Of a DNA stretch of 64,000 nt, positions 1,338-35,572 are shown piece after piece (positions within the stretch are counted from its first letter, which is position 1; each line of letters opens with the position of its first letter). Both the position numbers and the translations under genes were made by a program. The notes beneath the pieces are model-generated. The model made no database searches, was not told where the DNA came from, and saw only the letters and a program-made list of their open reading frames with translations. Source of the stretch: Microbispora corallina (GTDB taxonomy: Bacteria; Actinomycetota; Actinomycetes; Streptosporangiales; Streptosporangiaceae); NCBI RefSeq assembly GCF_016863035.1, contig NZ_BOOC01000005.1, forward strand, positions 372,001-436,000, written 5' to 3'.

Positions 1338-2518
1338 TCACTCGGCGCGCAGGGCCACCACGGGGTCCAGACGGCCGGCGCGGCGGGCCGGGGCGACGCC
1401 GAAGAACACCCCGACCCCGGCCGACACCCCGAACGCGAGCGCGACCGACCACCAGGTGATCGCGGCCGGCACCGGGGACAGCTCCTGGATGAGCAGCGCG
1501 CCCCCGACACCGAGCAGGATGCCGATCAGGCCGCCGATCGTGGTCAGCAGCACGGCCTCGATGAGGAACTGCCCGAGGATGTCGCGCTGCCGGGCGCCGA
1601 GGGCCTTGCGCAGGCCGATCTCCTTGGTCCGCTCCCGGACGCTGACGAGCATGATGTTGGACACCCCGACCCCGCCCACCAGCAGCGAGATGCCCGCGAT
1701 CGCCGCGAGCACGCCGGTCAGCATGGTGAGGACGGTCCCGATCGTGCCGAGCAGCTGCGTCTGCGTCACGGCGGAGAACTTCTCGTCCGGATAGCGGGCG
1801 TCCAGTGCCGCCACGACGCGGCGCTGCAGCGGCTCGATCTCGTCCGGGCCGGACGCGCCGATGGCGATGCCGTTGATCCTCGGCAGCCCGATGAGCCGCT
1901 GGGCCGTGGTGACCGGGACGTGCACCTCCTGGTCGCGGGCCACCCCGAAGGTGGACCCCACGGTCTCGTACACGCCGATCACCCGGAAGCGCACGCCCGC
2001 GATCGTCACCTGCCGCCCGACGGGGTCGACGTCGCCGAACAGCTTGGCCGCCACCTCGGCGCCGAGGATCGCCACCCTCCTGCGGGTGTCGACGTCGGTG
2101 GCGCTGAGGTACCGGCCGCGGCGCAGCGGGCGGTCGAAGATGTTCGGCAGGTTCTGGTCCGTCCCGGTCAGCGTGGCGAACACCTCGGTCCGGCCCACGC
2201 GCACCGGCTCCCCGGAGTTCACGGCCACCGTGACCTTCGCGGGGTCCCCGACGACCCGGCGCACGTACGCGACGTCCGACAGGTCGAGGCGGCTCTGCGT
2301 GGGGGCCGCGCCCAGCCCGACCTGACCGGGGACCACGAGGATGATGTTGCTGCCCAGCCCCGCGATCTCCTTCTCCACCGCGTTCTTCGCCCCGGTGCCG
2401 ATGGCCACGAGGATCACCACGGCGAGGACGCCGATCACCACGCCCAGCATGGTGAGCGTGCTGCGCAGCCGGTTGACCCGGAGGGCCTCCAGCGCCATCC
2501 GCAGGGCCTCGGCCGTCC

Positions 2519-2522
<4 letters not shown>
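1338..2522 (-). CDS. ABC transporter permease, MacB/FtsX type
   Basis: A 394-residue membrane protein with one N-terminal membrane segment (about residues 20-45), a long extracytoplasmic MacB-periplasmic-core domain, and three C-terminal membrane segments ending in the FtsX domain. The phrase GVSNIMLVSVRERTKEIGLR is the family hallmark. Mechanotransmission ABC proteins of this type move peptides, lipoproteins or drugs out of the envelope. The start overlaps the ATPase stop by four bases, so translation is probably coupled, and the adaptor gene lies upstream in the same run. The substrate cannot be read from the sequence. Confidence 0.88.
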
Positions 2523-3225
<703 letters not shown>

Positions 3226-3229
<4 letters not shown>

Positions 3230-4692: not shown

Positions 4693-4961
4693 TAGGTTAT
4701 TTCGTCTTTATGGTCATAGACATGGCCGAGACGTCCACTCTCGTTCCCCGATGTCGGCTTCGGCGCTGAACGGGCGGTAACGCCCGCGTTCGACATCCTC
4801 TGTCGCGTTCTCAACGACGTCGTCCGCTCGCGGGCGGCACACCTCGGCATGCGCGGGCCCGGCGCTTCCCGTCTGGACTGCCACCGATTCGCCGTACCGG
4901 CGGCCTCGGCGCGCTCCCGATCCGATCCCTGCCGTGAAGAGTTCCCCTCAGGAGGAGTTCC
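4693..4961 (+). other. upstream region and possible leader of the flavoprotein operon
   Basis: No gene is credible in this gap between divergent operons. An imperfect two-tier hairpin can form at 4750-4797: outer arms GATGTCG (4750-4756) and CGACATC (4791-4797), and an inner six-base stem CGGGCG/CGCCCG around a GTAA loop. It does not match the SAM, cobalamin or T-box layouts I know. A strong AGGAGG ribosome site at 4950-4955 precedes the first flavoprotein gene. Confidence 0.35.
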
Positions 4962-6599
4962 GTGACCGTCACCGGCACCTCGTCCGACCCGCTCGACCTG
5001 TCCGCCGGCGTCCTCGTGGCGGGCGGCGGGCCCGCCGCCGCGTGGGCCGAGTACAAGGCCGCGCAGGCGGGCGCCGATGTCGTCCTCGCCGACAAGGGCT
5101 ACTGCGGGACCAGCGGCGCGACCGCCTCCGCGGGCACCGGGGTGTGGTACGTGCCGCCGCGTCCCGCCGAACGGGAGAGGGCCATGGCCTCCCGGGAGGC
5201 CCTCGGCGGCCACCTCGCCGACCGCCACTGGATGGCCCGCGTGCTCGACCAGACGTACGAGGGGATGGGCGAGCTGGCGGACGCCGGCCGGTACCCGTTC
5301 CCTCCCGACGGCGAGGGCGGGCAGGTCCGGCGCGGCGTCCAGGGGCCCGAGTACATGCGCCGGATGCGGATCCTGCTGCGCCGCGCCGGAGTGCGGATCC
5401 TCGACCACAGCCCGGTCGTCGAGCTGCTGACGGACGAGGACGGCGCGGTGGCCGGCGTCGCCGGTTACCAGCGGCAGCGTGACCGGCCGTACCGGGTCAG
5501 GGCGGGCGCCGTCGTACTCGCCACCGGTGGCTGCGCGTTCCTCAGCCGCGCGCTGGGCTGCGACGTCAACACCGGGGACGGGGCACTCATGGCGGCCGAG
5601 GCAGGCGCGGAGCTGTCGGGCATGGAGTTCTCCAACGCCTACGCCATCGCGCCGGAGTTCTCCTCCGTGACCAAGACGGCGTACTACTCCTTCGCGACGT
5701 TCTATCGCGAGGACGGCACGGTGCTCGAAGGGGCGGGCAGCCAGAAGGGCCGGTCGGTGATCGCCCGTACCCTGCTGACCGAGAAGGTCTACTGCCGCAT
5801 CGACCGGGCCGGCCCCGACGTCCAGCGGGCCATGCGGCTCGGCCAGCCGAACTTCTTCCTGCCCTTCGACCGCATGGGCGTCGACCCGTTCACCCGGCTC
5901 TTCCCGGTCACGCTGCTACTGGAGGGCACCGTGCGCGGGACGGGCGGGATCCGCGTGGCGGACGACGAATGCGCGACCTCCGTACCCGGCCTGTACGTGG
6001 CGGGCGACGCGGCCACCCGCGAGCTGGTGTGCGGCGGCTTCACCGGGGGCGGCAGCCACAACGCCGCGTGGGCGATCTCCTCGGGCACCTGGGCGGGGCG
6101 GGGCGCGGCCCGGTTCTCCGCGGCGCTCGCGCCCTCGGCCTCGCGCCGTCCCCTCATCCCCGCGGGCGGCGCCGGACTGCGGCCCACCGGCCGTCCCGCC
6201 GCCCGTGACGGGTACCGCGAGGTCGTCGCCGCCGTCCAGGCCGAGGTGCACCCGTACGAGAAGAACTACCTGCGGCACGGCGACCGGCTCGGGCCCGCGC
6301 TGGCGAACCTGCACGCCACGTGGGACCGGGTCCGCTCCTCGCTGTACGGCACGGGCGCGGGCGCGGTCCACGCCAGGCAGGCCGCCGCGATGACCGCCCA
6401 CGCGCGGTGGATGTACACCGCGGCCCTGGCGAGGCAGGAGTCGCGCGGCATGCACAAGCGGGAGGACCTTCCCGGCTCCGACGAGTCGTGGCGGCGCCGC
6501 CTGCTCGTGGAGGGGCTCGACGAGATCCGGGTCCGGCCCGACCCGGTCGCGCCGGTCGGCCCGCAGGAGTACGCCGATCACCTGCGGGCGGCGTCGTGA
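4962..6599 (+). CDS. FAD-dependent oxidoreductase, AprA/fumarate-reductase-like (copy 1)
   Basis: The 545-residue flavoprotein has the N-terminal dinucleotide site GGGPAA (residues 21-26), then ADKGYCGTSG (43-52), the central block NTGDGALMAAEAGAELSG and the second FAD block PGLYVAGDAA. These place it in the FAD_binding_2 family with fumarate reductase, SdhA and AprA. The His used for covalent flavin in SdhA is not seen, so FAD is probably noncovalent as in AprA. The start is a GTG six bases after AGGAGG, and the stop overlaps the ferredoxin start (GTGA). Pairing with a two-cluster ferredoxin resembles adenylylsulfate reductase, but the substrate is unknown; an organosulfur role is only an inference from the adjacent SsuA-like binding protein. 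Confidence 0.83.
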   Translation: MTVTGTSSDPLDLSAGVLVAGGGPAAAWAEYKAAQAGADVVLADKGYCGTSGATASAGTGVWYVPPRPAERERAMASREALGGHLADRHWMARVLDQTYEGMGELADAGRYPFPPDGEGGQVRRGVQGPEYMRRMRILLRRAGVRILDHSPVVELLTDEDGAVAGVAGYQRQRDRPYRVRAGAVVLATGGCAFLSRALGCDVNTGDGALMAAEAGAELSGMEFSNAYAIAPEFSSVTKTAYYSFATFYREDGTVLEGAGSQKGRSVIARTLLTEKVYCRIDRAGPDVQRAMRLGQPNFFLPFDRMGVDPFTRLFPVTLLLEGTVRGTGGIRVADDECATSVPGLYVAGDAATRELVCGGFTGGGSHNAAWAISSGTWAGRGAARFSAALAPSASRRPLIPAGGAGLRPTGRPAARDGYREVVAAVQAEVHPYEKNYLRHGDRLGPALANLHATWDRVRSSLYGTGAGAVHARQAAAMTAHARWMYTAALARQESRGMHKREDLPGSDESWRRRLLVEGLDEIRVRPDPVAPVGPQEYADHLRAAS

Positions 6600-7009
6600 T
6601 CGAGGTCGTCTCCGGCGAGCGGTGCGTCGGCTGCGACCGCTGCGTCCAGGTCTGCCCCACCAATGTCTTCGACTCCGGCCCCGGCGGCGTTCCGGTGATC
6701 GCCCGCCGGCACGACTGCCAGACGTGCTTCATGTGCGAGGCGTACTGCCCGGTGGACGCGCTCTTCGTGGCGCCCAGCCCCCAGCCGGTGGAGGCGGGCT
6801 CACCGCTGCGCGACGAGGCGCACCTCGTCGCGTCCGGCCTGCTCGGCGCCTACCGCAGGGAGATCGGCTGGGGCCGCGGCCGCACGCCGGGCGCCCTCCT
6901 CGCGGTCGGCCCCGATTTGCCCGGTCCGTCCGGTCCGGCCTCCGGATCCTCCCGGCCGGCCGCCTCCGGGTCCCCCTCCCGTCCCGTCTCCGAGAAGGAG
7001 CACCGATGA
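6596..7009 (+). CDS. 4Fe-4S dicluster ferredoxin, AprB-like (copy 1)
   Basis: A 137-residue protein with two cluster motifs: CVGCDRCVQVCP (Cys 10, 13, 16, 20) and CQTCFMCEAYCP (Cys 41, 44, 47, 51). The first cysteine of each set follows the usual CxxCxxCxxxC spacing. The tail holds a conserved IGWGRGRTPG block shared with copy 2, then a Pro/Ser-rich end. The GTG start overlaps the flavoprotein stop and the ATGA at the end overlaps the next gene, so the pair is translated together. It most likely passes electrons to or from the FAD protein, as AprB does for AprA. Confidence 0.85.
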   Translation: MIEVVSGERCVGCDRCVQVCPTNVFDSGPGGVPVIARRHDCQTCFMCEAYCPVDALFVAPSPQPVEAGSPLRDEAHLVASGLLGAYRREIGWGRGRTPGALLAVGPDLPGPSGPASGSSRPAASGSPSRPVSEKEHR

Positions 7010-8007
7010 CGACGCGACGATCGTTCGTCCTCCTGGCGGCCGCCGCGCTGGCGCTGCCCGCCGCGCTGTCGGCCTGCGGGCGGGACGCCGCGACGGGAGC
7101 CCCCTCGGGCGGCGCGAGCACGCCGTACACGCTGCGGATCGGCGTGATCGGCACCGGGAACAGGCTGACAGGCGTGTTCGGCTACCTGGACAGCGTGAGG
7201 AAGCTCATCCCCCTGCTGGCCCCCGCGGGGGTCGCCGCGGTGAAGACGTACACGTTCCCGAACGGCCCCGACCTCAACCAGGCGCTCGTGTCGGGCGCGC
7301 TCGACGTCGCGACGTACGGCGACACCCCGGCCCTGGTGGCGCGGGGCACCGGGCAGTCCAGCCGGCTGATCGCGCAGGCCACGGTCGGCCTCGACGCCGG
7401 CATCGTCACGAAGAAGCAGGGCGGGCCGGCGTCGCTCGCGGAGCTCGCGGGCCGGAAGGTCGCCGTGCAGAAGGGGTCCTACATCCACCGCTACCTGCTG
7501 GGCGCGCTCGGCGACGCCAAGGTGCGGCCGCAGGCGGTCCTGCACCTCTACAACAGCGACATGGAGGCGGCGCTGGAGCACGGGGACATCGACGCGGCGG
7601 CCCTCCCGGCCGCGAACCTGGAGGCCCTGCGGGCGAAGGGCTATCCGGTGATCGACGTGGCCTCCAAGGACCATCCCGCCTACCTGGGCACCAGCGTCAC
7701 CATCGTGCCGGACTCCTTCCTCGACCGCCATCCCGGTTTCGTGAAGGTGTGGCAGCGGGCCCAGAGGGAGGGGACCAAGCTGGTCAAGGCCAACTGGGAC
7801 GGCTATCTGGCCTTCTCGGTTAAGGTGGGCGGCTTCCCCCCCGACGTCGTGAAAGCGACGACGGTGCGGAGCCAGCTCCCCGAGGAGCCGTTCACCCAGC
7901 AGGGGCTGGCGCTGCTGGAGAGCACCAAGAGGTTCCTCGTCCAGCAGGGCTTCGTGAAGTCCGACTTCTCCATCGACCAGTGGATCGCCCCGGGAGCGCG
8001 GGGATGA
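7006..8007 (+). CDS. ABC substrate-binding lipoprotein, SsuA/TauA/NMT1-like
   Basis: The 333-residue product starts with an MTTRRSFVLL signal that has a twin-Arg motif and a lipobox LSAC at Cys24, so it is probably a Tat- or Sec-exported lipoprotein. The body is a periplasmic-binding fold of the nitrate/taurine/sulfonate group, with the usual phrases VSGALDVATYGDTPALVARG and LAGRKVAVQKGS. It lies between the two flavoprotein/ferredoxin pairs, overlapping both neighbours by four bases. No ABC permease or ATPase is adjacent, so either the transporter is elsewhere or the protein works with the redox pair directly. Preceded by an AAGGAG ribosome site. Confidence 0.83.
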   Translation: MTTRRSFVLLAAAALALPAALSACGRDAATGAPSGGASTPYTLRIGVIGTGNRLTGVFGYLDSVRKLIPLLAPAGVAAVKTYTFPNGPDLNQALVSGALDVATYGDTPALVARGTGQSSRLIAQATVGLDAGIVTKKQGGPASLAELAGRKVAVQKGSYIHRYLLGALGDAKVRPQAVLHLYNSDMEAALEHGDIDAAALPAANLEALRAKGYPVIDVASKDHPAYLGTSVTIVPDSFLDRHPGFVKVWQRAQREGTKLVKANWDGYLAFSVKVGGFPPDVVKATTVRSQLPEEPFTQQGLALLESTKRFLVQQGFVKSDFSIDQWIAPGARG

Positions 8008-9596
8008 GCCCGTCCGCTGCCCCGCATCTCGTACGGGACGCCGACGTGCTGGTCCTGGGCGGCGGCCCCGCCGGGGCGTGGGCGGCCATCGCGGCGGCCG
8101 AGGCGGGCGCCGTCGTCGTGCTGGCCGACAAGGGCTACTGCGGGACCAGCGGGTCGGCGGCCTCCGGCGGCAACAACCTGTGGTACGTGCCGCCCGACCT
8201 CGCGCTGCGCGAGGACGCGATGGCCCGGCGCGAGGCCATCGCCGGCGGGCTGACCGAGCGCCGGTGGATGGCCCGGGTGCTCGACGAGACCTACCGCCAG
8301 ATCAACCGGCTCGCCGGCTGGGGCTACCCGTTCCCGGTGGACGACGCCGGGGTGGAACGGCGCAGCAGCCTCCAGGGACCGGAGTACATGCGCAGGATGC
8401 GGCGGCGGGTCCACCGAAGCGGCGTGCTCATCCTCGATCACCATCCCGCGCTGGAGCTGCTCGCGGACGCGGACGGCGCGGTCGCGGGCGCCGCGGGGAT
8501 CCGCCGTCAGCAGGGCGGCGGGCGCTGGGAGGCCCGGGCCCGGGCGGTCGTCCTCGCCACCGGCGGGTGTGCGTTCCTGTCCGGCGCCTTCGGGCTCAAC
8601 GTGGACACGGGGGACGGCCACCTCATGGCGGCCGAGCTGGGGGCGGAGCTGTCGGGCATGGAGTTCTCCAACGCCTACGCCCTGTCCCCCGCGTACGGTT
8701 CGCACACCAAGGGCCTAATGATGCAGTTCGCCAGCTATTACGACGAGGACGGCGACAGGCTGGACGTCGGGGACATGACGGCGGCCCGGCGCCCGATCGC
8801 CCGGATGCTCGCCGACGGCCGGCAGGTGTTCGCCCGGTTGGACAAGGCCCCGCCGGGCCTGCGGGAGGCCATGCGCCAGGCGCAGCCCAACTACTTCCTG
8901 CCCCTCGATAAGGCCGGCATCGACCCCTTCGCCCAGTCCTACCCGGTACGGCTGGTGTTCGAGGGCACCGTACGCGGGACCGGCGGCCTGCGGGTCACCG
9001 GCGACGACTGCGCCACCACCGTCCCCGGCCTGTACGCGGCGGGCGACGTGGCCACGCGCGAGCTCATCACGGGCAGCGTCAGCGGCGGCGGCAGCCACAA
9101 CGGCGCCTGGGCCGTCTCCTCCGGCACCTGGGCGGGCGCCGCGGCCGCGGCCTTCGCCGCGAGGCAGCGCCGTGCGGACAGGCCGCGTGCGGCGGGGCGG
9201 GCGGGCCTGCGCCCGTACGGCCCGGCCGGCGGCGGTCCGGACGCGGCCGAGGTCGTCGGGGCCGTGCAGGAGGAGATCCTGCCGCTCGGCCGCAACTACT
9301 TCCGCTCCTCGGAGGGGCTGCGGCGCTCCCTCGGCGCGCTGGACGGGCTGTGGACGTCGGTCGCCGCCCACCTGACCGGCGAGGGCCGGGAGGCCCTGCG
9401 GGCCAGGCAGGCCGCGGCCATGGTGGCGCACGGACGCTGGATGTACCGGGCCGCGCTCGCCCGGGAGGAGTCGCGCGGCATGCACCAGCGGGTCGACCGG
9501 CCGGCGGCCGACCCCCGGCTCGCCCACCGCGTCCGGGTGGGCGGCCTAGACGAGATCTGGACCGCGGCTGAGGAGACCCGGGAGGTGACGGCGTGA
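8004..9596 (+). CDS. FAD-dependent oxidoreductase, AprA/fumarate-reductase-like (copy 2)
   Basis: The 530-residue paralogue of the flavoprotein three genes upstream keeps the same landmarks: GGGPAG (19-24), ADKGYCGTSG (41-50), GLNVDTGDGHLMAAELGAEL, PGLYAAGDVATRELI, and the C-terminal RQAAAMVAHGRWMY and ESRGMH blocks. By eye more than half of positions agree with copy 1; the stretch before the substrate-side loop (residues 50-60 and about 235-260) differs most. The ATG at 8004 overlaps the stop of the binding protein. Keeping two full copies in one operon suggests a heteromer or two related substrates rather than recent duplication. Confidence 0.83.
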   Translation: MSPSAAPHLVRDADVLVLGGGPAGAWAAIAAAEAGAVVVLADKGYCGTSGSAASGGNNLWYVPPDLALREDAMARREAIAGGLTERRWMARVLDETYRQINRLAGWGYPFPVDDAGVERRSSLQGPEYMRRMRRRVHRSGVLILDHHPALELLADADGAVAGAAGIRRQQGGGRWEARARAVVLATGGCAFLSGAFGLNVDTGDGHLMAAELGAELSGMEFSNAYALSPAYGSHTKGLMMQFASYYDEDGDRLDVGDMTAARRPIARMLADGRQVFARLDKAPPGLREAMRQAQPNYFLPLDKAGIDPFAQSYPVRLVFEGTVRGTGGLRVTGDDCATTVPGLYAAGDVATRELITGSVSGGGSHNGAWAVSSGTWAGAAAAAFAARQRRADRPRAAGRAGLRPYGPAGGGPDAAEVVGAVQEEILPLGRNYFRSSEGLRRSLGALDGLWTSVAAHLTGEGREALRARQAAAMVAHGRWMYRAALAREESRGMHQRVDRPAADPRLAHRVRVGGLDEIWTAAEETREVTA

Positions 9597-10015
9597 TCGA
9601 GATCGTCAGCCGCGACCGCTGCGTGCGGTGCGACATCTGCGTCAAGGTCTGCCCGATGGACGTGTTCGAGCCCGGGACGGACGGGGTGCCGGTGATCGCC
9701 AGGCAGCCCGACTGCCAGACGTGCTTCATGTGCGAGGCGCACTGTCCCGCGGACGCCCTCTTCGTGGCCCCGCTCGCCGGCCCGGCCCCGGCCGGCTCGC
9801 CGTACACGGACGAGGCGGCGCTCGTCGCGTCGGGCGCGATGGGCCGCTACCGCCACGTCATCGGCTGGGGGCGGGGCCGCACGCCGGGCAGCCGGCTCGA
9901 CAAGAACTTCGTCTTCACCGCCCGTCTGGCCGCCTCCGGAGGCGAAGGCCCGTCCCGGACGGACGCCTCCGGAGATGACGCCGGGGTCTCGGAACGTCAG
10001 CCGGAGGCGAGCTGA
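9593..10015 (+). CDS. 4Fe-4S dicluster ferredoxin, AprB-like (copy 2)
   Basis: The 140-residue partner of the second flavoprotein has cysteines at exactly the same positions as copy 1 (10, 13, 16, 20 and 41, 44, 47, 51) and the shared IGWGRGRTPG block. The tail differs from copy 1 and is rich in Ser, Gly and Asp. The GTG start overlaps the flavoprotein stop. The last 19 bases overlap the convergent proC gene, so the operon has no room for a terminator before proC. Confidence 0.85.
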   Translation: MIEIVSRDRCVRCDICVKVCPMDVFEPGTDGVPVIARQPDCQTCFMCEAHCPADALFVAPLAGPAPAGSPYTDEAALVASGAMGRYRHVIGWGRGRTPGSRLDKNFVFTARLAASGGEGPSRTDASGDDAGVSERQPEAS

Positions 10016-10791
10016 CGGCTGCGGTCGCGGGCCGCCTCGATGGCGTCGAGGAACGCGGCCCGGACCCGGTGGCGCTCCAGCTCCGCGATGGCGGAGATCG
10101 TGGTCCCGCCGGGGGAGGTCACGGCCTCGCGGAGGATCACCGGGTGCTCACCGGAGTCGCGCAGCATGGTCGCGGCTCCGACGATCGACTGGACGACCAT
10201 GTCGAGGGCGGCGGCGCGCGGCATGCCCAGCAGGATCCCCGCGTCGACCATGGCCTCGACCAGATAGAAGAAGTACGCCGGGCCGCTGCCGGACAGCGCG
10301 GTCGCCGCGTCCTGCTGGGACTCCGGGATCCGCAGGACCTTGCCGACCGGGCTGAGCAGCTCCTCGGTGCGCTTGAGGTGCTCCTCGCCCGCGTGCGCGC
10401 CGGCCGAGATCACGCTCATGGCCTCGTCGACGAGCACCGGCGTGTTCGACATGACGCGGACGACGGGCACCTGCTCCCCGAGCCGCGCCTCGACGAAGGC
10501 GGTCGTGATGCCGGCCGCGACCGAGATGACCAGCCGTCCGCCGGGAACGTGCGGGGCGATCTCGGCGAGCAGCGTGTGCATGTCCTGCGGCTTGACCGCG
10601 AGGATCAGGGTGTCGGCCTCCTCGGCCGCCTCGGCGTTGCCGGCCACCCGCACGCCGTACCGCTCGCGCAGCGCCTCGGCCCGCTCAGGACGCCGGGCGG
10701 TGGCGATGACCTCGGACGGCCCGAGCCCGGCGCGCAGCAGCCCGGACATGAGGGCCTCGCCCATCTTGCCGGTCCCGAGTATCGCGATCAT
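9997..10791 (-). CDS. proC: pyrroline-5-carboxylate reductase
   Basis: The 264-residue enzyme reduces pyrroline-5-carboxylate to proline with NAD(P)H in the cytoplasm. It has the N-terminal Rossmann motif GTGKMG, the ProC signature around GSGPAYFFYLVEAM and the SPGGTT loop. Length is normal for ProC. It is transcribed against the redox operon and overlaps its last gene by 19 bases. A GGTGAGG ribosome site precedes the ATG at 10791. Confidence 0.95.
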   Translation of the reverse strand: MIAILGTGKMGEALMSGLLRAGLGPSEVIATARRPERAEALRERYGVRVAGNAEAAEEADTLILAVKPQDMHTLLAEIAPHVPGGRLVISVAAGITTAFVEARLGEQVPVVRVMSNTPVLVDEAMSVISAGAHAGEEHLKRTEELLSPVGKVLRIPESQQDAATALSGSGPAYFFYLVEAMVDAGILLGMPRAAALDMVVQSIVGAATMLRDSGEHPVILREAVTSPGGTTISAIAELERHRVRAAFLDAIEAARDRSRQLASG

Positions 10792-30609: not shown

Positions 30610-30688
30610 CCCGGCCCGGGGCTTCCCGGCCCGGCCTCCGCGGGACAAGATGAGTTCGGCGAGCAGACCGAGCGTCAGGAGGCCGTAC

Positions 30689-32854
30689 GTGGAGACCGTG
30701 CACCGGACCTGCCCGTTGTGCGAGGCCGTCTGCGGCCTGCGGATCACCCTCGACGACTCGGGACGGGTCGCCGAGGTCCGCGGAGACCGGGACGACCCGT
30801 TCAGCAGGGGCTACATCTGCCCGAAGGGGGCCTCGCTCGGCCGTCTCGACGAGGACCCCGACCGCCTCTCCGCGCCGCTGGTCCGCAAGGGCGGCGAGTG
30901 GCGCGAGGTCTCCTGGGAGGAGGCGTTCGCCGCGGTCGAGGAGGGCCTCGCGCGCGTCCCCGGCCCGGCGCGGGCCGTCTACCTCGGCAACCCGAACGCC
31001 CACACCATGGCCGGCGCCCAGTACGGCTCCCCGCTCGTGCGGGCGCTCGGCACCCGCAACGTCTTCTCCGCCAGCACGGCCGACCAGATGCCCAAGCACG
31101 TCGCGTCCGGCCTGATGTTCGGCGACCCGATGGCGATCCCGGTGCCCGACCTCGACCGCACCTCCTACCTCCTCATGCTGGGGGCCAACCCGCTGGAGTC
31201 GAACGGCTCGCTGTGCACGGCCCCCGACTTCCCCGGCCGGCTCAAGGCGCTGCGCGGGCGCGGCGGCCGGCTCGTGGTCGTCGACCCGCGCCGCACCCGC
31301 ACGGCCGCGCTGGCCGACGAGCACGTCTTCGTCCGCCCGGGGACCGACGCGTACCTGCTCGCCGGGATCGCGCACACGCTGATCGCCGAGGACCTCGTGA
31401 CGGTCCGGGTCCCCGCGAACGGCCTGGCCGAGGTGGCCGGGGCGCTGCGCGACCTCACCCCGGAGGCCTGCGCCGCCGCCTGCGGGGTGCCGGCCGACGT
31501 CGTCGTACGGCTGGCCAGGGAGCTGGCCGCCGCGCCGTCCGCCGCCGTCTACGCCCGCATCGGCACCTGCACGGCCGAGTTCGGCACGATCGCCCAGTGG
31601 CTCGTGGAGGTGGTCAACGCGCTGACCGGGAACCTCGACCGGCCCGGCGGCGCGATGTTCGCGCGGCCCGCGACCGAGGCGCCGGGGCGGCGCAGGCCGT
31701 ACCGGACGGGGCGCTGGCACAGCCGGGTGCGCGGCCTGCCGGAGACGAACGGCGAGCTGCCGGTCGCGACCCTGGCCGACGAGATCGAGACGCCCGGCGA
31801 GGGCCGGATCAGGGCGCTGGTCACGGTGGCGGGCAATCCGGTGCTGTCCGCGCCGAACGGCGCGCGGCTTGGCCGGGCGCTCGCCGGGCTCGAGTTCATG
31901 GTCAGCGTCGACCCCTACCTGAACGAGACGACGCGGCACGCCGACGTCGTCCTGCCGCCGCCCCGGGTGCTGCGGTCGGGCCACTACGACTTCGCGCTGC
32001 TCCAGTTCGCGGTGCGCAACTACGCCCGCTACTCGCCCCCGGCCCTCCCGTTGGACGGCCGGCCGTCGGAGGCCGAGATCCTCGCCCGGCTCGCCATGAT
32101 CGCCGCGGGACAGGGGGCCGACGCGGACCCCGCCGCGCTCGACGAGCTCGTCCTCGGCCAGATGCTCCGGGCGGCGGTCGACGCCGAGGGCCCACTGCAT
32201 GGCCGCGACCCCGCCGAGTTGCGGGCGGCCCTCACCGGGGCCGACGGCGCCGAGAGGCGGCTCGACGCCATGCTGCGCCTCGGCCCGTACGGCGAGTGGA
32301 ACGGCGGCAAGCTCTCGCTCCGCACGCTGCTGGACGCCCCCCACGGGCTCGACCTCGGGCCGCTGGAGCCCCGCATCCCGGGCAACCTGCGTACGGCCTC
32401 CGGGGTGGTGGAGCTGGCCCCGCGGCCCATCCTCGACGACCTGGCCCGGCTCCGGGCGAGCCTCGGCAGGCCGGCCCCGGAGTTCGTGCTCATCGGCAGG
32501 CGGCACCTGCGCTCGAACAACAGCTGGCTGCACAACGTCGGCCCGCTCGTCGGCGGCACCAACCGCTGCACGCTGCAGATCAACCCGGCCGACGTGGCCC
32601 GGCTCGGGCTGGACGGCACGGCGGTGGTCCGCTCGGCGGCGGGTGAGCTGTCCGTCCCGCTCGAACCCACCGAGACGATCATGCCGGGCGTCGTGAGCCT
32701 GCCGCACGGCTGGGGGCACGAGGGCAGCCCGCAGGCCGTGGCCGCGCGGAACGCCGGGGTCAACGTCAACGTCCTGACCGACGAGACCGTGGTCGACGCG
32801 CTGTCCGGCAACGCGGTCTTCAACGGCGTCCCGGTGACGATCGCGGCCTCGTGA
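30689..32854 (+). CDS. molybdopterin-dependent oxidoreductase with [4Fe-4S] cluster
   Basis: The 721-residue enzyme belongs to the DMSO reductase/formate dehydrogenase superfamily. The N-terminal cluster ligands are Cys 8, 11, 15 and 44 (CPLCEAVCG, YICPKG), followed by the bis-MGD domains; NPLESNGSL and GNPVLSAPNG are cofactor contacts, and the C-terminal molydopterin-binding domain holds LRSNNSWLHNVG. No partner subunit or Tat signal is present, so it is cytoplasmic and takes electrons from an unknown carrier. GTG 30689 is chosen because AGGAGG lies six bases upstream, although the frame opens at 30650. Confidence 0.88.
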   Translation: METVHRTCPLCEAVCGLRITLDDSGRVAEVRGDRDDPFSRGYICPKGASLGRLDEDPDRLSAPLVRKGGEWREVSWEEAFAAVEEGLARVPGPARAVYLGNPNAHTMAGAQYGSPLVRALGTRNVFSASTADQMPKHVASGLMFGDPMAIPVPDLDRTSYLLMLGANPLESNGSLCTAPDFPGRLKALRGRGGRLVVVDPRRTRTAALADEHVFVRPGTDAYLLAGIAHTLIAEDLVTVRVPANGLAEVAGALRDLTPEACAAACGVPADVVVRLARELAAAPSAAVYARIGTCTAEFGTIAQWLVEVVNALTGNLDRPGGAMFARPATEAPGRRRPYRTGRWHSRVRGLPETNGELPVATLADEIETPGEGRIRALVTVAGNPVLSAPNGARLGRALAGLEFMVSVDPYLNETTRHADVVLPPPRVLRSGHYDFALLQFAVRNYARYSPPALPLDGRPSEAEILARLAMIAAGQGADADPAALDELVLGQMLRAAVDAEGPLHGRDPAELRAALTGADGAERRLDAMLRLGPYGEWNGGKLSLRTLLDAPHGLDLGPLEPRIPGNLRTASGVVELAPRPILDDLARLRASLGRPAPEFVLIGRRHLRSNNSWLHNVGPLVGGTNRCTLQINPADVARLGLDGTAVVRSAAGELSVPLEPTETIMPGVVSLPHGWGHEGSPQAVAARNAGVNVNVLTDETVVDALSGNAVFNGVPVTIAAS

Positions 32855-34822: not shown

Positions 34823-35572
34823 TCAGGACAGCAGCTTCACAATCGCCACGATCCCGACCGCGACGATGAACCCGCGCAGGAGCGGAGCGGGCAGCCGGCG
34901 GCCCACCCGGGCGCCGAGGAACCCTCCGGCCGCCGAGCCGAGGGCGACCATCGGCGCCGCCGTCCAGTCCACCGGCGCGATCAACGTGAAGAGGATCGCG
35001 GCGGTCGCGTTGACCAGCAGCGACAGCAGGTTCTTGGCCGCGTTCACCCGCTGGATGTCCTCATCGAGGAAGCTGCCGAGCAGGCCGATGAGCACGATGC
35101 CCTGGGCCGCTCCGAAGTAGCCGCCGTAGACGCCGGCAAGCAGCACCCCCAGCCACAGCCACGGGCCGCCGTGCGCGTGCGGCCGGCGCCGTACGGCGAG
35201 CCAGGAGTTGAGCCGGGGCTGCACCACGACCAGGACGCAGGCGATCCCGATGAGCACCGGCACGATCACGTTGAACGCGTCGGCGGGCAGGCGCAGCAGC
35301 AGCACACCGCCGATGAGGGAGCCGGCGACCGACGCGAGGCCGAGGCGGAGCAGGCGGTCGCGCTGGCCGCGCAGCTCCGGGCGGTAGCCGAGCACCCCGG
35401 TCACGCCGCCGGGGACGAGGCCGATGTTGTTGGAGACGTTCGCCGTGATCGGGGGAAGGCCGATCGCCAGCAGGGTCGGGAACGTGATGAGCGATCCGGA
35501 GCCCACGACCGCGTTGATGGCCCCGGCGCCCACCCCGGCCGCGAACACCGCGGCCGCCTCCAACGGCGTCAC
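34823..35572 (-). CDS. TauE/SafE-family sulfite/organosulfonate exporter-like permease
   Basis: The 249-residue membrane protein has about seven to eight hydrophobic segments and the family pattern of two related halves (GAGAINAVVGSGSLITFP and GVYGGYFGAAQGIVL). TauE/SafE proteins move sulfite, sulfoacetate and similar anions. It is not next to the flavoprotein/ferredoxin operon, so a shared pathway is only conjecture. GTG 35572 follows GGAGGGG. Confidence 0.87.
   Translation of the reverse strand: MTPLEAAAVFAAGVGAGAINAVVGSGSLITFPTLLAIGLPPITANVSNNIGLVPGGVTGVLGYRPELRGQRDRLLRLGLASVAGSLIGGVLLLRLPADAFNVIVPVLIGIACVLVVVQPRLNSWLAVRRRPHAHGGPWLWLGVLLAGVYGGYFGAAQGIVLIGLLGSFLDEDIQRVNAAKNLLSLLVNATAAILFTLIAPVDWTAAPMVALGSAAGGFLGARVGRRLPAPLLRGFIVAVGIVAIVKLLS

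Follow-up and report, generated by a model that had tools for sequence, protein, structure and literature searches.

A probable Asf-type sulfonate-sulfur operon with two diverged AsfA/AsfB pairs and without its importer genes in Microbispora corallina

We analysed a 64,000-nucleotide stretch of the Microbispora corallina genome (contig NZ_BOOC01000005.1, positions 372,001 to 436,000; hereafter the window), near the beginning of which five genes lie on the forward strand in the order flavoprotein, ferredoxin, binding lipoprotein, flavoprotein, ferredoxin (A1-B1-lipoprotein-A2-B2; 4962-10015 in the window list of open reading frames, ORFs; Table 1). All four gene junctions overlap by four bases (GTGA, ATGA, ATGA and GTGA in order), as had been read in an initial annotation of the sequence, which compared the pairs with the adenylylsulfate reductase AprA/AprB and proposed a dedicated redox system for an imported organosulfur or other anion. 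Sequence comparison indicates that A1 and A2 very probably belong to the AsfA family and B1 and B2 to AsfB, with an AsfC-like lipoprotein, and the unit is probably an Asf-type operon for scavenging sulfonate sulfur that carries two diverged AsfA/AsfB pairs. New here is an Asf operon variant with two long-separated enzyme copies from which the membrane-transport genes have been lost.

The two flavoproteins are 56% identical to each other, the two ferredoxins 61%. A1 and A2 each combine the Pfam families FAD_binding_2 and Succ_DH_flav_C and share the motif ADKGYCGTSG (residues 43-52 and 41-50, respectively), and in an alignment with FrdA the loop holding the histidine for covalent flavin adenine dinucleotide (FAD), SHT, falls on an SGA stretch with Gly in the His column; the shared motif and the lack of the covalent-FAD His of SdhA, both noticed initially, are thus borne out. 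No separate NAD(P)H-reductase or NAD(P)H-binding domain was found in A1 or A2 in the Pfam scan, where Pyr_redox_2 matched the FAD part. B1 and B2 match Fer4 families and have eight Cys at shared positions (10, 13, 16, 20, 41, 44, 47 and 51), which had been described for this pair and are invariant across 36 aligned proteins. The lipoprotein matches NMT1 in Pfam as well as the structure of an aliphatic-sulphonate-binding protein (2x26, E=3e-12), and its translation contains a lipobox-like LSAC near residue 25; it appears SsuA-like, and we do not assign it to SsuA itself.

On the megaplasmid of Cupriavidus metallidurans CH34, A2 has one matching place only (53.3% identity over 90%), and A1 is 57% identical to the same AsfA candidate; the CH34 genome paper, in the sections available, locates asfRAB on that replicon, with AsfA and AsfB as Rmet_4334/5 (PMC2864759). 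The window shares with asfRABC of Pseudomonas putida S-313 and with AsfA/AsfB of CH34 the combination of flavoprotein, ferredoxin and binding protein in the order A-B-C, and differs in its two A/B pairs, in the lack of a visibly adjoining LysR gene and in the absence of the importer genes that lie 5' in its relatives. As described in the accessible text on strain S-313, an asfA transposon mutant lost the use of aryl-sulfonates and kept that of aliphatic ones, and the Asf cluster is an extra kit for aromatic desulfonation, made up of a reductase and its ferredoxin, a binding protein together with an ATP-binding cassette (ABC) transporter, and a LysR regulator (PMC4267179). In excerpts of a further study, AsfA serves as the marker gene by which soil bacteria able to release sulfur from aromatic sulfonates are traced (PMC9694294). 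Review literature, to the extent available, presents AsfAB as an electron chain for an oxygenase, and the accessible portions of the asfA literature found describe AsfA and AsfB only as an electron-transfer pair, without a purified-enzyme reaction. The initial annotation had considered that its proposal would fail if both flavoproteins fell into an established family whose reaction is assigned; the family found has a known genetic role and, in these portions of the literature, no assigned reaction. The two-copy actinobacterial operon is not named in the asfA literature found, to which the 1999 paper on S-313 does not belong, so an earlier description is possible; the accessible parts of PMC7661421, PMC8557817 and PMC3506598 held nothing decisive. 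Fifty-nine plasmid records contain a match to A2, in every case below 60% identity; the best 40 of the 59 are from proteobacteria, actinobacteria and Paenibacillus, and the overall tally adds Nostoc.

Table 1 Features of the five-gene unit and its 5' flank in the window, with assignments predicted from sequence.
Feature	Position	Strand	Start and length	Predicted assignment
Probable relic	4804-4961	+		3' end of an SsuB-like ATPase gene; in relatives the ATPase gene sits directly 5' of A1
A1	4962-6599	+	GTG start, 545 aa	AsfA-type FAD flavoprotein, first paralogue
B1	6596-7009	+	GTG start, 137 aa	AsfB-type 2x[4Fe-4S] ferredoxin
Lipoprotein	7006-8007	+	ATG start, 333 aa	SsuA/NMT1-type substrate-binding protein, AsfC-like
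A2	8004-9596	+	ATG start, 530 aa	AsfA-type FAD flavoprotein, second paralogue
B2	9593-10015	+	GTG start, 140 aa	AsfB-type 2x[4Fe-4S] ferredoxin

In a tree of 107 A proteins, the root of which is not known and in which the branch placing the Paenibacillus copies with their sides is weak (62), 12 tandem loci of actinobacteria, the window among them, have their first copies in one clade (18 rows, support 97) and their second copies in another (36 rows, support 97). The B tree splits B1 from B2 likewise (support 95, on 115 columns and with many forks unresolved). Because the A1 and A2 copies form two clades and B1 and B2 split alike, a recent tandem duplication was rejected. Twenty columns differ fixedly between 12 A1-clade and 18 A2-clade proteins. 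Among 18 AsfA of other phyla, the most frequent residue at these columns is A1-like in 13 cases, clearly A2-like in 4 and neither or mixed in 3; this predominance of the A1 residue suggests that A2 is the copy that changed. By hand count, 13 of the 20 columns lie in four segments that align with flavin and substrate (active-site) loops of FrdA, segments that were hand-picked from the FrdA alignment after the columns had been seen. His 234 and Arg 316 occur in all 18 A2-clade proteins and could make A2 suited to another anion. The two-clade operon offers a natural comparison of A1 alone, A2 alone and both, together with a short list of residues, and asfA counts in actinobacteria may mix the two paralogues. 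In Pseudonocardia acaciae (G455:C4:269071-270437), an A1-like gene is matched as two directly adjoining segments that differ in frame (78% and 70%), with query residues 254-315 missing, and is perhaps a broken copy.

Gene neighbourhoods were surveyed in named genomes around the best 80 of 571 relatives of A2, and the resulting shares hold for near relatives of A2. A B gene lies directly 3' of A in 79 of these 80 loci, and 42 of the 80 have a same-strand gene for a substrate-binding protein (SBP) no more than 2.5 kb away. Within 6 kb, 38 loci have the full set of SBP, ATPase and permease, and 26 an oxygenase of the luciferase-like monooxygenase (LLM) or TauD type; the linkage to a binding protein that the initial annotation expected in related genomes is therefore conserved. 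The order A-B-SBP-A-B occurs in 11 named loci, every one of them with permease and ATPase directly 5'. Nonomuraea glycinis and Streptomyces hoynatensis are among the relatives that carry the unit. A family survey found A in 29 of 297 genomes (E<=1e-80), 13 of them with two copies, including the genome of the window; of fifteen stretches examined, nine were tandem, and all nine read permease-ATPase-A-B-SBP-A-B. Two of these, L198 and L199, repeat L036 and L028 at 100% identity; for the remaining seven, the best match to any named locus does not exceed 95.5% identity. Counting the window, there are thus 19 distinct tandem loci in actinobacteria, of which 18 have the importer genes, in the order permease-ATPase-A1-B1-SBP-A2-B2, and the window is the only one that lacks them. 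In the Nonomuraea operon, the best models are SsuC for the permease (244.6 bits, cut-off 347) and SsuB for the ATPase (249.5 bits, cut-off 395). A plasmid locus of Paenibacillus cellulositrophicus (L025) has the similar order ATPase-permease-permease-A-B-SBP-A'-B', and differs from the window in that the importer is present and A' forms a long branch of unsure placement in the tree. As the five-gene order recurs in other genera and on this plasmid, the arrangement is not due to chance. In L197 the A1 match is only partial. Orders with a single A gene occur as well: L209 reads permease-ATPase-A1-B1-SBP with A2 absent, and mycobacteria have SBP-permease-ATPase-A2-B2. Across the phylum, A was found at E<=1e-60 in 4 of 396 genomes (own included, with three candidates scored per genome).

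The initial annotation had reported the absence of permease, ATPase and sulfate-activation genes. No ABC permease or ATPase belongs to the five-gene unit, and no sulfate-activation gene was noticed among the window ORFs, in a list read by eye and only partly scanned. The absence of the importer is a loss in this lineage, because 18 of the 19 distinct tandem loci keep the genes and a probable co-linear relic of the ATPase remains 5' of A1. Positions 4804-4954 are co-linear with the last 165 nt of the ATPase gene of Spongiactinospora (L027), an alignment that 3 of 500 shuffles equalled. Scores anchored at the gene junction over 40, 60, 80, 120 and 200 nt were reached by 0 of 300 shuffles at each length for L027 and by 0, 1, 0, 3 and 5 of 300 for Nonomuraea (L026); the shuffles keep dinucleotides and not codon structure, and were run for L027 and L026. 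Aligned locally, L197 (a relative of L027 at 94%) reaches the same window base 4954, and L026 and L196 give local alignments that lack co-linearity and fall elsewhere in the ATPase gene. Elsewhere in the same genome, permease and ATPase paralogues (C1:236780-238224) are 47% and 64% identical to those of the Nonomuraea operon and adjoined by an SBP gene and an SsuD-like gene (442 bits, cut-off 510), and an NtaA/DmoA-family monooxygenase shares 59% identity with one encoded close to an asf locus of Pseudonocardia.

Ratios of nonsynonymous to synonymous substitution rates (dN/dS), calculated pairwise and not as a branch test, range for the five genes from 0.23 to 0.44 between the window and either L026 or L027 and from 0.28 to 0.49 between L026 and L027. 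A1 and A2 have values of 0.23-0.25 with the window, lower than the 0.28-0.31 between the two relatives, and those of SBP and B2 are mixed or similar.

From the observed gene order, family, fold and conservation and the absence of importer genes, we infer the substrate and the reaction of the operon. The substrate is likely a sulfonate, which agrees with the redox system for organosulfur uptake proposed initially. The lipoprotein would bind the sulfonate, most likely an aromatic one, and pass it to an SsuBC-type importer; since the importer genes have been lost from the operon, uptake may depend on the paralogous importer of the Ssu type that is encoded at another place in the genome, a use of a foreign importer that we presume. 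Each AsfA would contribute FAD and an active site, and AsfB would pass electrons via its two [4Fe-4S] clusters in a presumed direction. This flavin/Fe-S redox step would let the C-S bond be cut, probably with participation of a flavin-dependent monooxygenase of the SsuD/LLM or TauD type encoded elsewhere, and the sulfite freed would then be assimilated. If the pocket changes have this meaning, two paralogues with different pocket residues could provide a wider substrate range or two specificities.

Several observations weigh against this interpretation. The CH34 AsfA was matched by elimination, because the record has no annotation at that place, and the comparison was made with this candidate and not with the proteins of P. 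putida S-313. The lipoprotein scores 116.1 bits against the SsuA_fam model TIGR01728, under the cut-off of 163.5. No LysR gene was seen adjoining the unit, whose neighbours are an HlyD-type protein and an ORF that we take to be ProC; an adjacent asfR is a trait of the Pseudomonas cluster and not of the protein family. B1 has dN/dS values of 0.40 and 0.43 with the window, higher than the 0.28 between the relatives, and with its transporter lost the system could be out of use in this strain. The tandem operons contain no oxygenase gene from the permease through to B2, and LLM or TauD matches within 2 kb past B2 are missing from 9 of the 11 named tandem loci; in the other two (L030 and L034), which speak for the interpretation, an LLM-family gene starts about 200-300 nt after B2 and is 26-28% identical to the Pseudonocardia one. 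The two oxygenase observations, together with the lack of an NAD(P)H domain in A1 and A2, make direct action of AsfAB compatible with the data: AsfA, a flavoprotein with the fold of APS/PAPS reductases, would itself take the sulfite group off the imported sulfonate by means of its flavin, with electrons moving via AsfB, and the pair would not be an electron supplier for an oxygenase. We regard this variant as unlikely; if it were true, the operon would encode two desulfonases of different specificity with one shared binding protein.

Alternatives with a different chemistry have to be considered in light of fold and family models. AlphaFold2 models of A1 and A2 reached a mean predicted local distance difference test score of 87.9 (55 aligned rows) and 87.5 (42 aligned rows), and their best fold matches are FrdA and SdhA, with template modelling (TM) scores of 0.76-0.79 in the top rows; FrdA, SdhA and L-aspartate oxidase folds share a TM over the model of about 0.60-0.80 among the rows listed. 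A reductase of activated sulfate, converting nucleotide-bound sulfate to sulfite in the manner of AprAB or of the 3'-phosphoadenosine 5'-phosphosulfate (PAPS) reductase of the methanogen Methanothermococcus thermolithotrophicus, draws on the same architecture of a fumarate-reductase-family FAD alpha subunit and a 2x[4Fe-4S] beta subunit (PMC10322725, in the text available). The PAPS reductase alpha subunit (8a8o_A) has TM scores of 0.75 and 0.79 to the A1 and A2 models and a full-length profile match of 88 bits, AprA has TM scores of 0.72 and 0.75, and in a PDB search B1 found the beta subunit 8a8o_C second in the list (E=1.5e-8, co-linear). However, identity in the fold alignments is 16-19%, the AprA model has a cut-off of 557 bits and gives the flavoproteins 31 and 38, and TIGR02061 (aprA), run over the whole genome, matched elsewhere, nowhere above cut-off, and not at the operon (E<=0.001). 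FrdA and SdhA match better than AprA in profile comparison and NadB about equally well; in a profile alignment with six AprA (95% probability), the stretches that we take to hold the catalytic Arg and His are not kept, in a region where the alignment is weak. The partners in relatives are a sulfonate-type importer and not ATP sulfurylase or adenylylsulfate kinase, and AprAB was rejected on model cut-offs and gene neighbourhood, which leaves activated-sulfate reduction highly improbable. Of the initially proposed likeness to AprA/AprB, the fold and the alpha/beta pairing stand, and the closest kind is AsfA/AsfB. An enzyme of the fumarate-reductase/dehydrogenase type acting on an imported carboxylate or enone, with an SBP for a non-sulfur anion, would account for FrdA and SdhA being the best sequence and fold matches, and nitrate, pyrimidine precursors and other compounds are likewise ligands of the NMT1/SsuA superfamily. 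Yet no curated NCBIfam model matched A1 or A2 above its cut-off: among the models listed (best 25 of 35 and of 55), the best reached 91 bits against 819, and SdhA, FrdA and NadB models at most 91 bits against cut-offs from 452 to 1196, missing them by hundreds of bits. In addition to the absent covalent-FAD His, the residues that we take to bind the dicarboxylate in FrdA are not kept, the His after MEFVQF meeting Tyr and the Arg of NRLGSN having no matching Arg, and the partner is an eight-Cys ferredoxin, presumably not of the FrdB type. An assignment to SdhA, FrdA or NadB was rejected on cut-offs and missing residues, and with SsuB/SsuC-like importer genes in relatives and the Asf genetics also speaking for a sulfonate, we consider a carboxylate or enone quite improbable.

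Two further alternatives concern how, and whether, the operon works. An A-B-A'-B' assembly had been suggested initially, and in its obligate form only the mixed complex would be active, in keeping with the tight operon and with the joint retention of A1 and A2 in 19 distinct loci of actinobacteria. A copy search of 30 genomes, several of them drafts of completeness not given, argues otherwise: tandem genomes had both A1 and A2 (9 of 9), and at E<=1e-80 those entered via an A2 locus had that copy only in 15 of 19 cases (the other four had more) and those entered via an A1 locus in 2 of 2. As single-copy genomes imply that the A/B pairs can serve alone, and L209 and the mycobacterial operon each carry one A gene, such an assembly is not needed, an obligate A-A' complex is not supported, and we give it little credence. 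Decay of an operon out of use since the importer genes were lost has more in its favour, namely the reduction of these genes to a probable ATPase relic, the absence of the unit from all 14 further genomes searched within the genus and the somewhat raised dN/dS of B1. Against it, all five frames are intact with their overlaps kept, the dN/dS of A1 and A2 is lower with the window than between relatives and that of SBP and B2 similar, and paralogous importer genes are present in the genome, and decay therefore seems unlikely compared with a functional Asf-type sulfonate operon.

Around the unit, a minus-strand ORF (9997-10791; the ORF recognised by eye as presumable ProC) overlaps the 3' end of B2 by 19 bases. 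Upstream, ABC genes on the minus strand (1338-3229) stand next to the HlyD-type fusion protein and look like an exporter separate from the five genes. A TauE/SafE sulfite-exporter family protein is encoded 25 kb from the operon (34823-35572, minus strand), and a molybdopterin oxidoreductase with an Fe4S4 domain at 30650-32854 (plus strand). In other genomes, five Bradyrhizobium loci (L055 11986-13542, L063, L051, L054 and L064) contain a second, far-branching A-B pair (length 1.64) no more than about 6 kb from the usual asfAB, and an amidohydrolase gene recurs beside the SBP-ATPase-permease set in L021, L024 and L090 (Cupriavidus, Azospirillum and one Bradyrhizobium). A1-B1 stands back to back with a TauD-type dioxygenase in L002 and L207 (89% identical between the loci), with no SBP in the stretch examined. 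Genomes of other Microbispora gave weak matches to A2 of about 32%, whose sameness with the following protein is not established: a second flavoprotein resembling AprA and FrdA, which bears HEAT repeats (PRK13800, 1581 bits, above cut-off), is encoded in G000:C2:58000-72000 (L142, 4770-7481, minus strand), near a sulfonate/nitrate-type set of SBP, ATPase and permease.

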